The translations under genes and the position numbers were made by a program. 64,000 nucleotides of DNA from Cytophagales bacterium CG12_big_fil_rev_8_21_14_0_65_40_12 (GTDB taxonomy: Bacteria > Bacteroidota > Bacteroidia > Cytophagales > Cyclobacteriaceae): NCBI GenBank assembly GCA_002786855.1, contig PCUU01000008.1, forward strand, positions 1 through 64,000. The letters are read 5' to 3'. Positions 52,287 through 57,320 of the stretch are shown here, in pieces. The notes beneath the pieces were generated by a model, which saw only the letters and a program-made list of their open reading frames with translations, did not search any database and was not told where the DNA came from. Every line of letters starts with the position of its first letter. Position 1 is the first letter of the stretch.

Positions 52287-52317
52287 ACAAAAGGAGTGCT
52301 TAAAGCACTCCTTTTGT
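52287..52317. terminator. bidirectional terminator between the permease and hisB
   Basis: A perfect 14-bp inverted repeat ACAAAAGGAGTGCT / AGCACTCCTTTTGT with loop TAA. Both strands end in T-runs, so it can stop transcripts from either side. On the minus strand it encodes the last residues of HisB (STKGVL) and its stop codon. Confidence 0.85.
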
Positions 52318-53397
52318 ACTAGGTAATCGGTTCATTTCATTGGCATTGCGTTGCACAGCCATTTTAATGGCTTTCGCGAAGGCCTTGAAGATGGACTCAA
52401 TTTTATGGTGCTCGTTTTCTCCTTCTACTTTGATATTGAGGTTGCACTTGGCGGCATCGGAAAAGGATTTGAAGAAGTGCATAAACATCTCAGTTGGCAT
52501 ATCTCCTACCCTTTCGCGCGTAAATTTGGCTTCCCAAACCAACCATGGCCTTCCGCTAAAATCAATGGCGACTTGTGCTAAGGCTTCATCCATTGGCAAT
52601 AAAAAGCCATAGCGATTTACTCCTTTTTTATCTCCAATCGCTTTTGCATATGCTTCTCCCAAAGCCAAGGCTGTATCTTCGATGGTATGGTGTTCATCAA
52701 TATGCAAATCACCTTTGACCTTAATTGTTAAATCAGCACCAGAATGTTTCCCTAATTGATCAAGCATATGATCGAAGAAACCTAACCCAGTTTCATTATG
52801 GCATTGGCCAGTACCGTCTAAATTCAATTGAATTAGAATATCTGTTTCTTTTGTCACCCGGTGTACTTCCGCAGTACGAGGTGGCATTTGCAAGAAATTG
52901 AAGATTTCATCCCAACTCATTGTCGTTAAGGCTGCTCTTTCATTTTTTTCTTCAGCAATGAAAATCGCCTTCGCCCCAAGGTTATCCGCCAATTGAATAT
53001 CTGTTACTCGATCTCCCAAAACATAGGAATTAGCAAGATCAAAATCTCCATTCATATAGTGCGTCAACAAACCCGTCCCAGGCTTTCTCGTAGGTGCATT
53101 CTCATGCCCAAATGTGCGGTCAATGGCAATTTCGTCAAATACGACACCTTCATTTTCAAGCGTTTGGAGCATTTTATTATGTGCAGGCCAAAAAGTATCT
53201 TCTGGAAAAGACGCTGTTCCCAAGCCATCTTGATTGGTGACCATCACCAACCTATAGTCAAGTTGTTCAGCAATTTTACGCAAGTTCGAAATCGCCCCGG
53301 GCAAGAACTCTAATTTTTCTAAAGAATCTACCTGCTGATCTTCCTTAGGCTCGATAATAATGGTACCATCACGATCTATAAACAATATTTTTTTCAT
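52300..53397 (-). CDS. hisB: bifunctional histidinol-phosphatase / imidazoleglycerol-phosphate dehydratase
   Basis: 365 residues. The N-terminal HAD phosphatase ([10 protein letters not shown], nucleophile Asp8 and Asp10) occupies about residues 1-165 and removes phosphate from histidinol phosphate. The C-terminal IGPD domain has the manganese-binding histidine motifs [28 protein letters not shown] and NEHHKIES. The fused form is also found in enterobacteria and is common in Bacteroidota. Last gene of the his operon. Its final codons lie in the terminator. Confidence 0.97.
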
Positions 53398-53474
53398 CCT
53401 TCATGGTTTATTGTTCGCAGTTTAATGTTCTTGGTTGAAACCACTTCTGTCAACTTTGAACTTCAAACTTTAAA

Positions 53475-54524
53475 CTAATTTAAAACTGTTTTGAGTGCTT
53501 CAATCAGCATTTCATTTTCCTTTTCGGTACCCACAGTAATTCGGATACCTCCCTCGCAAAGCGCAACTTTTGATCGATCCCTTGTAATGATCTTCTTAGC
53601 GATCAAAGCTTGATAAACTGCCGAGGCATTGTCCATTTTGACTAAAAAGAAGTTTGCGTCCGTTGGACAAATCGTTTTGATCTTTAGATTTTCAGCCAAA
53701 GCCTTTCCTAATATTTCGCGATTCGCAAGAATTTGTGCTACCATTTGATCTTTGGCTTGCACATTATCCAAGGCTTCTATAACCGTCCTTTGTATCAGGC
53801 CACTAAGGTTATAAGGTGCCTTGATTCTATTCAAAATGGCTAGGATTTCTTTTGATGCGAAGGCCATTCCTAATCTCAAAGAAGCCAAGCCCCATGCCTT
53901 GCTAAAAGTTTGCAGCACCAACAAATTCGGATATTGATCGAGTTTATGCACAAAGCTTTCTCTCGATGTAAAATCAACATAAGCCTCATCCACTATCACA
54001 ATGCCTTTAAAGGATTTGATCACTTCTTCAATTTTAACTAAAGAGACATCATTTCCTGTTGGGTTATTTGGCGAACATATAAACAAAAGCTTACTGTTTC
54101 CGTCAATCTTGGCCTCAATGCTTGCTAAGTCCAAATCATAGTAAGCAGTAAGCAATGCTTCGCGCACTTCCACATTATTGATATCCGCACTGACCTTATA
54201 CATGCCATAAGTCGGTGGGTTGATAATGATATTGTCCTTAATTGGCTCGCAAAACGCTCTCAGCAGTAAATCAATAGGCTCATCGCTGCCATTTCCCAGA
54301 AAAATATTCTCGGCCTTTACCCCTTTAATTTGAGCAATCTTAGCCTTTAAATCGTATTGATAAGGATCAGGATATCGGTTCCAATTTTCTTTTGTAATCG
54401 AGCCAATTGGGTTCTCGTTGGCATCGAGAAAAACGCCCTTGCTACCTTTATAATCATCGCGTGCAGAAGAATAAGGCACCAACTTTTGCAAGTGGGCTCT
54501 TAAAAGTACGTTCGGATCAAACAT
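53475..54524 (-). CDS. hisC: histidinol-phosphate aminotransferase
   Basis: About 349 residues from MFDPNVLLRAHL; a start 12 bp upstream is possible. PLP enzyme that converts imidazole-acetol phosphate to histidinol phosphate. The YSSARDDY, GNGSDEPIDLLLRAF and SPNNPTG motifs and the PLP lysine in FSKAWG (about residue 209) are present, followed by RLGMAFAS. It overlaps hisD by 8 bp and lies 77 bp before hisB. Confidence 0.97.
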   Translation of the reverse strand: MFDPNVLLRAHLQKLVPYSSARDDYKGSKGVFLDANENPIGSITKENWNRYPDPYQYDLKAKIAQIKGVKAENIFLGNGSDEPIDLLLRAFCEPIKDNIIINPPTYGMYKVSADINNVEVREALLTAYYDLDLASIEAKIDGNSKLLFICSPNNPTGNDVSLVKIEEVIKSFKGIVIVDEAYVDFTSRESFVHKLDQYPNLLVLQTFSKAWGLASLRLGMAFASKEILAILNRIKAPYNLSGLIQRTVIEALDNVQAKDQMVAQILANREILGKALAENLKIKTICPTDANFFLVKMDNASAVYQALIAKKIITRDRSKVALCEGGIRITVGTEKENEMLIEALKTVLN

Positions 54525-55806
54525 TGTTGATTTCATTTAATCTGATGGTCACCGCATTTTTGTGTGCTTGCAGCAACTCTGCTTCAGCCAATTTTTCTAC
54601 CACCGGCCCTAAAGCCTTTAAACCCTCTTTTGTGATTTCTTGATAGGTGATTTTTTTCAAGTAACTATCCAGCGAAACACCGCTGTACATTTTCGCATAA
54701 CCGTTGGTTGGTAAAGTGTGATTAGTACCTGAAGCGTAATCGCCTGCCGATTCGGGAGTATAATTACCTATAAAAACGGAACCAGCATTCATGATTTGAT
54801 CGGAAACGATCCACGGGTTTTCTACCGAAAGGATCAAATGCTCTGCGCCATATTCGTTCAACAAAGCGATGGCTTCTTTTGGGCTTTCCATCACAATTGC
54901 CATACTGTTTTCTAAAGCCTTAGCCGCGATTTCTTTCCTTGGTAATTCAATCAATTGTAAGTCTAATTCTGATTGTATGGCCTGAACAACAGTTTCAGAA
55001 GAAGCCACCAATACCACCTGAGAATCCATTCCGTGTTCAGCCTGCGAAAGCAAGTCGGCAGCCACGAAAGCTGGAACCGCAGTTTCATCGGCATAAATCG
55101 CCACTTCTGAAGGACCAGCTGGCATGTCTATTGCCAAACCATATTTTGTTGAAAGCTGTTTGGCAGCCGTTACGTATTGATTTCCTGGGCCAAATATCTT
55201 GTTGACTTTCGGGATAGTATCCGTTCCGAAAGTCATGGCGGCAATGGCTTGCGCCCCTCCAACTTTAAAAATCTTAGTTACTCCAACCAAATGAGCTGTG
55301 TATAAAATGGCAGGATTGATCTTCCCATTTTGATCAGGCGGAGTGCATAATACGATCTCTTTGCAGCCTGCAATCTTTGCCGGCACTCCCAACATCAATA
55401 CGGTAGAAAGTAAAGGAGCGGTACCCCCTGGGATGTAAAGACCGACCTTTTCGATCGCCACGGATTTTCGATAACAGTTTACGCCTGGCATGGTTTCTAC
55501 TTGAAGCAACCCCTGTTTTTGAGCACTATGAAAAGTGTCGATATTGTGTTTTGCCGTGGCAATAGCTACTTTCAAATCATCCGGCACTAAATTAATCGCA
55601 TCTTGGACTTCGGCATTGCTGACATCCAATGAGCTGATTTCTACCCCGTCAAACTTTAAGGTGAAGCGTTTCAAAGCCACATCGCCTTCTGCCTTCACCT
55701 GTTCCATAATGGGCTTTACAATGGCCTCGATGGTTTCTAAATCCATGGTAGGCCGCTTTAAAAGTAGCTCCCATGTTGATTTCTGAGGATTGATCACGTT
55801 TTTCAT
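54517..55806 (-). CDS. hisD: histidinol dehydrogenase
   Basis: 429 residues. Oxidises L-histidinol to L-histidine in two NAD-dependent steps. Conserved blocks are YIPGGTAPLLSTVLMLGVPAKIAGC, VGGAQAIAAMTFGTDTIP, IDMPAGPSEVAIYAD with the zinc and catalytic sites nearby (LLSQAEHGMDSQ), and DYASGTNHTLPTNGYAKMYSG. It overlaps hisG by 4 bp (ATGA). Confidence 0.97.
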   Translation of the reverse strand: MKNVINPQKSTWELLLKRPTMDLETIEAIVKPIMEQVKAEGDVALKRFTLKFDGVEISSLDVSNAEVQDAINLVPDDLKVAIATAKHNIDTFHSAQKQGLLQVETMPGVNCYRKSVAIEKVGLYIPGGTAPLLSTVLMLGVPAKIAGCKEIVLCTPPDQNGKINPAILYTAHLVGVTKIFKVGGAQAIAAMTFGTDTIPKVNKIFGPGNQYVTAAKQLSTKYGLAIDMPAGPSEVAIYADETAVPAFVAADLLSQAEHGMDSQVVLVASSETVVQAIQSELDLQLIELPRKEIAAKALENSMAIVMESPKEAIALLNEYGAEHLILSVENPWIVSDQIMNAGSVFIGNYTPESAGDYASGTNHTLPTNGYAKMYSGVSLDSYLKKITYQEITKEGLKALGPVVEKLAEAELLQAHKNAVTIRLNEINNV

Positions 55807-56663
55807 AAAATCATTTTTTCGATTGGAACTACTAAGATACCCTGTGCGCCTGCATCTCTCAAATCTTCAATGATTTGCCAGAAATCATCTTCCTTGATTA
55901 CAGAATGTACAGAACTCCAGCCTTCGGTAGCCAATGGCAAAACGGTCGGACTTTTCATACCTGGTAGAATGCTGATAATCTTAGCAACAGCATCGTTAGG
56001 CGCATTCAACAGAATGTATTTGTTGTTCTTGGCCGTTTGAACTGAATCAATTCTAAAAATCAATCGATCTAAAATGGCTTTCTTTTCATCAGAAAGGTTC
56101 TTGTTCGCCAGCAAAACCGCCTCGGATTTGAAAATCACCTCTACCTCCTTTAAGCCATTGCTCAGTAGTGTTGAGCCAGAACTTACGATATCGCAAATAC
56201 CATAGGCCAAACCGATACTCGGGGCGATTTCTACCGACCCGCTAATTTCGTGGATATCAGCAGTGATATTATTCGCCTTTAGGTAGTCTCCCAAAATCTT
56301 TGGGTACGAAGTAGCCAAGCTCCTTCCTTCAAAATCTTGAATCCCATTGTAAGTTTGATTTTTGTCAATGGCCAAAGAAAGTCGGCATTTAGAAAAACCC
56401 AGTTTCTTTACCCAATCCACTTGCTTGTCCTTTTCTTCAGCTTCGTTTGCCCCAACGATACCCAAATCTGCTATGCCATCTTGTACGTAACCAGGGATAT
56501 CATCATCCCTCAGAAAAAGAAACTCCATTGGAAAATTAGAAGCTTCTGCCTTCAATTTCCCGGTTCCATTGTTCACTTTAATGCCACATTCTTTGATTAA
56601 GGAAAGTGATTCCTCGCTTAATCTTCCACTTTTTTGAACTGCAATGCGTAGTGTAGTATTCAT
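55803..56663 (-). CDS. hisG: ATP phosphoribosyltransferase (long form)
   Basis: 286 residues. First step of histidine synthesis, ATP plus PRPP. Long HisG_L type: catalytic domain with LRIAVQKSGRLSEESLSLI, DLGIVGANEAEE and the PRPP-site region SGSVEIAPSIGLAYGICDIVSSGSTL (in blocks), and a C-terminal ACT-like regulatory domain (from about 210) that would give feedback inhibition by histidine. First structural gene after the his leader. Confidence 0.97.
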   Translation of the reverse strand: MNTTLRIAVQKSGRLSEESLSLIKECGIKVNNGTGKLKAEASNFPMEFLFLRDDDIPGYVQDGIADLGIVGANEAEEKDKQVDWVKKLGFSKCRLSLAIDKNQTYNGIQDFEGRSLATSYPKILGDYLKANNITADIHEISGSVEIAPSIGLAYGICDIVSSGSTLLSNGLKEVEVIFKSEAVLLANKNLSDEKKAILDRLIFRIDSVQTAKNNKYILLNAPNDAVAKIISILPGMKSPTVLPLATEGWSSVHSVIKEDDFWQIIEDLRDAGAQGILVVPIEKMIL

Positions 56664-56689: not shown

Positions 56690-56776
56690 GCAAATGTAAT
56701 CAGCCTTATCAACCGTAAAGTCTTGAAAATGATTTATAAATTTTGATCGAATGTACCGACAGGAACTGCCGGGCAG
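56690..56776 (-). promoter_or_regulatory. candidate his attenuator structures between leader and hisG
   Basis: Minus-strand order after the leader stop: CCGGCAG/CTGTCGG (7 bp with one G-U, loop TTC, about 56757-56773), then AAGGC/GCCTT (about 56687-56707). Neither is followed by a T-run, so no classic intrinsic attenuator can be drawn with certainty. The space from leader to hisG, 132 bp, has room for competing stems. Confidence 0.35.
56691..56698 (-). promoter_or_regulatory. secondary -7-like box close to hisG
   Basis: TACATTTG on the minus strand, 27 bp before the hisG start, fits the -7 consensus, but no TTG lies 17-23 bp upstream. If real, it would bypass the leader. It also lies inside the AAGGC/GCCTT hairpin. 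Confidence 0.25.
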
Positions 56777-56795
56777 GGGTGTTTATATATCTCTC

Positions 56796-56864
56796 TTACG
56801 AGAGATGGTGGAAATGATGCACATGATGTGCAGGAATTGAAGCGATATCTGTGTTTTTCAACAT
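56796..56864 (-). CDS. hisL: histidine operon leader peptide
   Basis: A 22-residue ORF on the minus strand, MLKNTDIASIPA followed by HHVHHFHH and LS, so six of eight consecutive codons are histidine. It ends 132 bp before hisG, the first his gene. Six clustered histidine codons before a his operon are the hallmark of attenuation by ribosome stalling on charged tRNA-His shortage. The first histidine codons lie in a 7-bp inverted repeat (TGCACAT / ATGTGCA), and the stop codon lies in the loop of a second (ATCTCTC-GTAA-GAGAGAT). The start codon is 6 bp past the -7 box, so the mRNA may be leaderless. Confidence 0.85.
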   Translation of the reverse strand: MLKNTDIASIPAHHVHHFHHLS

Positions 56865-56870
56865 CGTTGG

Positions 56871-56900
56871 CAAAGGTAGTGAAGGCTGGCAATTGAGCAA
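56871..56900 (-). promoter_or_regulatory. histidine operon promoter
   Basis: On the minus strand, TTG (56898-56900), a 19-bp spacer and TACCTTTG (56871-56878). The ATG of the leader peptide begins 7 bases after the final G, about where transcription is expected to start in Bacteroidota. Confidence 0.85.
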
Positions 56901-56981: not shown

Positions 56982-57320
56982 ATGGCATTTAGCGATTTTT
57001 TAGCAGACAGGGTTCGCCAACGACTATCCAAGGCCAATATTACTGAGGAAAAAAAGATGATGGGTGGACTAATTTTTATGGTCAATGATAAAATGTGCAT
57101 TGGAGTAGATATTGATAAAACCACTGGACTGGACCGTTTAATGGTGCGCGTTGGCAAAGCCGCACACGAACAATTACTTTTTAAAAAGGGAAGTCAACAA
57201 ATGGATTTTACTGGTAAAGCGATGCGAGGCTTTTTATTTATTAGCCCTGAAGGTTTTGATGCTGATGAAGACCTAGACTTTTGGACAGAAAAGGCACTTG
57301 AGTTTAATAAAGAAATCTAA
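56982..57320 (+). CDS. TfoX N-terminal domain protein
   Basis: 112 residues covering the whole TfoX/Sxy N-terminal domain (FLADRVRQRLSKANITEEKKMMGGLIFMVNDKMCIGV), without the C-terminal helix-hairpin-helix domain of full TfoX. It ends GFDADEDLDFWTEKALEFNKE. In gamma-proteobacteria full TfoX controls competence; short Bacteroidota forms have no known role. Divergent from the his leader, 82 bp from the his promoter. Confidence 0.85.
   Translation: MAFSDFLADRVRQRLSKANITEEKKMMGGLIFMVNDKMCIGVDIDKTTGLDRLMVRVGKAAHEQLLFKKGSQQMDFTGKAMRGFLFISPEGFDADEDLDFWTEKALEFNKEI

Follow-up and report, generated by a model that had tools for sequence, protein, structure and literature searches.

The window, meaning the whole 64,000-nt stretch of DNA analysed here, carries on its minus strand a histidine biosynthesis operon preceded by a short histidine-rich ORF (Table 1). 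The operon consists of hisG, hisD, hisC and a bifunctional hisB, in agreement with the hisGDCB of the original prediction, an earlier note on this DNA. That prediction had also described a 22-codon ORF with six His in eight codons, 132 bp upstream of hisG, and a promoter of the TTG-N19-box type with the leader ATG 6 nt after the box; both were confirmed exactly, the 132 nt separating the leader stop codon from the hisG ATG (56663). A 34-codon ORF (56796..56900) is the same frame begun at an upstream TTG, and the internal ATG is the likely start of the leader. An eight-codon stretch with at least five His was found nowhere else in the six frames of the window, with a mean of 0.2 in 30 shuffles; the His cluster is not a chance occurrence. 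In the 4.06 Mb genome, the pattern TTTG-N19-TAHHTTTG-N4-8-ATG has two matches, the second of which opens a four-codon frame. HHxHH matches number 47 in the genome; among the 30 examined there was no further leader-like ORF, and 2 of the remaining 17 are the his leader itself. A scanner based on the E. coli consensus, which does not cover Bacteroidota promoters, returned no terminator and one promoter-like site elsewhere.

Table 1. Features of the his locus, in window coordinates.
Feature	Position	Strand	Remarks
hisG	55803..56663	minus	first gene of hisGDCB
hisD, hisC, bifunctional hisB	52300..55806	minus	
His leader ORF, 22 codons	56864..56796	minus	MLKNTDIASIPAHHVHHFHHLS; ATG at 56864, TAA 56798..56796
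Regulatory codons HHVHHFHH	56828..56805	minus	6 His in 8 codons, inside the leader ORF
Promoter	56871..56900	minus	TTG (56900..56898), N19, TACCTTTG (56878..56871); 6 nt, then leader ATG
P1, 7-bp stop-codon hairpin	56789..56806	minus	ATCTCTC-GTAA-GAGAGAT; loop contains the TAA; 5' strand starts within the last His codon
P2, second hairpin	56756..56773	minus	CCGGCAG-TTC-CTGTCGG; tail without U-run

Two further elements were noted in the same region. A divergent 112-aa ORF (56982..57320), which has no NCBIfam match and may be TfoX-like, shares the promoter region. A second box, TACATTTG, lies at 56698..56691, 35 nt upstream of hisG and without a TTG at -33; a TAnnTTTG sequence between leader and hisG is present in only one of the 19 genus genomes, namely that of the window, and this box is a possible second start.

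To follow the leader across relatives, 59 genomes (that of the window included) were searched; hisG was found in 51, and its upstream DNA was taken from 50. The genus of the window was called Roseivirga from the nearest named hisG loci (91% identity). In 19/19 genus genomes, hisG has in front of it a short ORF whose end carries a His cluster, in most cases HHFHHLS-stop or a near variant. The claim that a His-codon leader peptide stands ahead of hisGDCB is supported throughout the genus, and the comparison of hisG upstream regions that had been proposed with it found the His cluster kept in all 19 genomes. The most divergent form noted, in locus L019, starts with GTG and reads HITFFHTHHLS. Within the genus the N-terminus of the leader varies, CAT and CAC replace one another, and the stop codon, at a single position, is TAA, TGA or TAG, a pattern that fits a translated peptide whose C-terminus matters. 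Across the phylum, hisG is preceded in 25/40 loci by a cluster of 4 or more His within 10 codons. The leader is very probably a real histidine sensor.

The start of the leader is also arranged in a conserved way. The spacer after the TTG is 19 nt in 18 of the 19 genus genomes and 18 nt in one, and the leader start codon lies 4–7 nt downstream of the -7 box TAnnTTTG in all of them. Among 65 wider loci from named relatives, box and start were both called in 53, spaced by 6–10 nt; the other 12 comprise 9 without a leader by the rule used and 3 without box or start. A spacing of 4–5 nt between the -7 box and the transcription start is reported for Flavobacterium (PMC6847099), which leads to a predicted 5' UTR of 0–3 nt in the genus and of 1–2 nt in the window. 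A near-leaderless his leader mRNA is therefore probable, as judged from box spacing, and the start geometry of the entire genus agrees with the near-leaderless transcript that had been inferred. This geometry is not general in the window, where TTG-N18-20-TAHHTTTG is found near 3 of 58 ORFs (at least 120 aa), 33–53 nt before the start. In the trp leaders of the genus the start follows by 5–8 nt in the 16 of 18 loci in which an ATG and, by a loose pattern, a box-like site were both found. The reported share of leaderless mRNAs is 5.5% in F. psychrophilum (PMC9723704); in Bacteroides thetaiotaomicron, 5' UTRs shorter than 10 nt are reported to account for about 3.7% (PMC7366714).

From the last His codon onward two hairpins are predicted. 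P1, which encloses the stop codon and begins in that last His codon, recurs in 19/19 genus loci and in 57 of the 59 HH-leader loci among the 65 wider ones, as well as in 5/10 other loci of the family or order and in 2/7 terminator-less loci of other families of the phylum. It was found in 0/23 his leaders of the terminator type, 5 of which have some hairpin at that place, and shuffled sequences gave any P1-like hairpin in 5–11%. In a covariation set of 24 rows (19 distinct) chosen for a single P1 length, 98.5% of cells were paired, with 18 double-changed cells versus 6.2 in shuffles and a score of 0.37 versus 0.18; 3 of the 7 pairs showed a double change (48/500 shuffles as good), and pair types (6 versus 6.1) showed no excess over shuffles. 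P1 persists in leaders whose stop codon has shifted to the hairpin's end (L025, L119) or past it (L031), so it is not simply a by-product of the stop codon. For P2, tested on 17 distinct genus rows, 97.1% of cells were paired, 5 of 6 pairs were double-changed (10/500 shuffles as good) and the score was 0.70 versus 0.33 (0/500 shuffles), values biased in its favour by a structure derived from the same sequences; pair types (10 versus 9.3) showed no clear excess over shuffles. RNAalifold drew only P2 in the Roseivirga leader and missed P1, because the length of P1 varies. It drew a different P2-like hairpin in the Algoriphagus relatives, and P1 alone in the Belliella group.

A scan for strict U-run terminators (stem of at least 8 bp, at least 4 G-C, U-rich tail) between leader and hisG returned 0/19 in the his leaders of the genus, whereas the same scan found a terminator in 18/18 trp leaders of the genus, used as a control. 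A relaxed scan likewise gave 18/18 for trp and 1/19 for his, the single case (L013) having P2 followed by UUUUUCUU, which has the look of a genuine terminator. When applied to the 65 wider loci, the strict scan returned 61 leaders without a terminator, 3 loci without a leader and 1 leader with a terminator; in this last, L110, P1 is the stem. His leaders with terminators of 10–17 bp occur in other genera of the same GTDB family (L041, L042, L044–L048). For L020–L050 the strict scan gave 15 leaders without and 8 with a terminator and 8 loci without a leader, and for the phylum sample (n = 40) 13, 17 and 10, respectively; because the rule for calling a leader is permissive (3 His with HH), some of the no-terminator calls in distant taxa may rest on chance ORFs. 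In 14 loci, L013 among them, what the relaxed scan took for a terminator was a weak stem of 5–8 bp (P1, P2 or another); these 14 are not among the 23 terminator-type leaders, and neither are L228 and L241, called by the strict scan only. In the hisG tree (68 rows), a starred branch (support 97/86) has on one side every one of the 54 terminator-less rows plus 4 rows lacking a leader, and the 7 terminator rows lie outside it; the tree is midpoint-rooted, with unsettled bootstrap and some long-branched rows. Of the 72 rows entered, which included 22 of the 65 wider loci, four rows (L032–L034, L046) were dropped because a fixed start gave short or broken frames.

Some leaders deserve separate mention. 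Upstream of trpE, all 18 genus loci (L131–L148; for example L144, G000:C91:2333-2770) have a U-run terminator and a WWW leader peptide, and a hairpin after the Trp codons was seen by eye in the 9 of these inspected. In the Algoriphagus loci L094, L100, L102, L103, L105 and L107, P1 is followed by short or interrupted U-tracts, so that P1 may itself be a weak terminator there.

Taken at the level of sequence, conservation in the genus is established for the His-rich ORF, the near-leaderless start geometry, P1 at the last His codons, P2 and the absence of a canonical terminator, and as predicted anatomy the terminator-less architecture with a stop-codon hairpin is well supported. On this basis we favour, with moderate confidence, a ribosome-mediated histidine attenuator of terminator-less architecture. 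The nascent mRNA would start 0–3 nt before the leader start codon, so that a ribosome would load on the emerging 5' end. When charged tRNA-His is scarce, the ribosome would stall on HH-x-HH; the leading edge of a ribosome lies about 13 nt past the A site, as known from toeprints, and with any of these His codons in the A site it would extend up to P1 or into it. The stalled ribosome would then cover the 5' strand of P1, which would stay open while transcription runs into hisG. With ample histidine, the ribosome would reach the stop codon within P1 and depart, P1 and P2 would fold, and expression would be cut off ahead of hisG. The position of P1 at the His codons suggests direct control by ribosome position, and such a model would give the right sign, with P1 open and the operon on under histidine shortage. 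A ribosome following closely behind RNA polymerase would cover P1 with ample histidine too, so the model must assume a pause or delay.

How the folding of P1 and P2 would cut expression is the least certain part of this model. The tails of P1 and P2 are U-poor in the genus (L013 aside), so termination would need a factor or Rho. Premature termination at P1/P2 despite the poor U-tract, aided by a factor such as NusG, has a somewhat less than even prospect; the action of Rho on the freed C-rich leader is rather doubtful, an effect on mRNA decay or translation is doubtful to the same degree, and some other output seems quite improbable. The terminator-like P2 of L013 and the U-tracts behind P1 in Algoriphagus raise the possibility that these leaders are an ordinary attenuator that has degraded. 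We can only tentatively entertain the broader idea that a Bacteroidota lineage replaced terminator and antiterminator by a single stop-codon hairpin, occupied or released by a 5'-end-loaded ribosome, which alone would decide operon expression without a U-run terminator.

An unlikely alternative is Rho-dependent termination in its own right, in which release of the ribosome would let the C-rich, G-poor leader load Rho and end transcription before hisG, while a stalled ribosome would mask the loading site, following the masking logic of E. coli tnaC. The rho gene is present in the genome of the window, C-rich single-stranded sequence (ACACCCC-like) lies downstream of P1 in most of the genus, and the best 80-nt C-minus-G stretch reaches the 90th percentile of background in 14 of the 19 leaders. 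However, the median p is no lower than 0.095, and a run of His codons is rich in C in any case. The Rho-like composition of the leaders is suggestive only.

An ordinary attenuator of the E. coli type, with an antiterminator competing against a U-run terminator downstream of the leader, is improbable in the genus. Leaders of this kind do occur nearby: in the other family genera described above, in 17/40 phylum loci by the strict scan and in the trp leaders of the genus itself, and P2 of L013 keeps a U-run. Nevertheless, 18 of the 19 genus his leaders fail even the relaxed scan. In a gap-free in-register scan of 17 of the 19 Roseivirga rows (L012 and L013 left out), pairing of the leader or P1 with P2 yielded nothing longer than 4 bp and a single 4-bp leader–P2 match, and P2 had no match in the stretch before hisG (16 distinct rows). 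Rfam returned three chance-level matches to unrelated families (E 6.1–8.6) and no His_leader or T-box match, and in 11 loci, two of them trp, nothing matched at gathering score. The original prediction had invoked attenuation of the E. coli his/trp form, and this part of it was not supported as stated: the scans found no strict terminator in the 19 genus leaders and, in 17 of them, no antiterminator above 4 bp between leader/P1 and P2.

Translational attenuation, in which the HHFHH codons (UUUCCAU) would base-pair with AUGGAAA at the hisG start until a stalled ribosome set that start free, is highly improbable. This helix appears in the RNAalifold structure of 15 Algoriphagus rows, L012 (HHIHH and GATGGATA) can form 8 bp, and the in-register scan of the 17 Roseivirga rows found a few leader–hisG start matches of 4–5 bp, with 81–85% pairing and at most 3 columns with double changes. 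Against this, exchanging each leader's own partner for those of other loci made no difference (permutation p = 0.30 in Roseivirga, 19; 0.83 in the Algoriphagus group, 28; 0.50 in the Belliella group, 18; 0.75 in all 72), and on this negative swap test the pairing was rejected. In the window itself the pairing is weak (-4.3 kcal/mol). Neither covariation of the leader with the hisG start nor a conserved antiterminator longer than 4–5 bp was found in the 17 rows. The best duplexes between leader and downstream RNA were on average weak, with mean z values against shuffles of -0.2 in Roseivirga, -0.7 in the Algoriphagus group and -0.3 in the Belliella group, and with L006, L010, L067, L098 and L127 as exceptions (z -2.2 to -3.2). 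Finally, an ORF that is no sensor and whose His codons are incidental is scarcely credible, given that the leader is kept with synonymous changes in the whole genus and that the His cluster recurs in most of the phylum sample.

The proposed terminator-less attenuator can be set beside several known systems. The E. coli his leader peptide has 18 aa with seven consecutive His (PMC3896937). The hisL leader of E. coli and Salmonella (Rfam His_leader) is likewise a short ORF with clustered His codons upstream of the his operon, whereas the Roseivirga leaders have a predicted near-leaderless start and a stop-enclosing hairpin, yielded no antiterminator or terminator helices and no U-run (L013 aside), and have no Rfam match. 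In Sinorhizobium meliloti, the 5' end of the trpL attenuator RNA is reported to coincide with the ATG of the leader ORF (PMC7298713); unlike the his leader described here, this alphaproteobacterial attenuator serves trp and has both a terminator and an antiterminator. In the same phylum are the terminator-type his leaders of other Bacteroidota (the seven from the same GTDB family together with L230–L232, L238, L240, L242–L244, L252, L256, L261 and others), which share the His-rich leader upstream of hisG but differ in having a U-run terminator and no stop-enclosing hairpin; their start lies 10–40 nt after the -7 box in those 11 of 22 loci where a box was found.

In E. coli pyrBI, the leader ORF overlaps the hairpin it controls and the signal is UTP, and in tnaC a stalled ribosome blocks Rho in response to tryptophan; both differ from the his leader in their signals and resemble it in logic only. 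The original prediction had doubted that his attenuators of this form were described in Bacteroidota. For the his leader this stands, none being described among the matches listed in the open-licence PubMed Central literature, but it does not extend to leader-peptide attenuation generally: 'strong clues' for it in amino-acid operons are reported for F. psychrophilum, in a main text without histidine (PMC9723704), and the B. thetaiotaomicron map reports sORFs reminiscent of leader peptides (PMC7366714). Neither Bacteroid- nor hisG occurs in the main text of a 2010 survey of premature terminators (PMC2965389); that survey, built on terminators, would probably miss a terminator-less class.

The genus pairs a textbook-like trp attenuator having a terminator with a terminator-less his attenuator, both of near-leaderless geometry. 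This matched pair serves the question of how a ribosome on a leader peptide could control an operon without an intrinsic terminator, and also that of leaderless initiation feeding attenuation in a phylum lacking Shine-Dalgarno sequences. The ordinary type persists in other genera of the family, so that the change can be mapped onto a phylogeny and put to the test.

Inspection by eye of the genus loci for ilvD, two homoserine dehydrogenase types and prephenate dehydratase found no conserved ORF of regulatory codons, the fused-enzyme loci having too little upstream DNA to judge. In another family of the phylum, the his leaders of L254, L258 and L260 (for example HDVHHLHQGHHHA) have no U-run terminator, and visual inspection suggests a hairpin made of the His codons themselves; these are possibly a separate terminator-less type. 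Furthermore, a motif ATATYGC (window 56848..56842; also L066, L077, L020, L031 and others) occurs in terminator-less leaders, either within the ORF or downstream of P1. Within 230 nt of hisG it was counted in 9/19 genus loci, 28/65 wider loci and 0/23 terminator-type leaders, and in L002–L004 it lies further upstream; its changing place suggests a role in the RNA.
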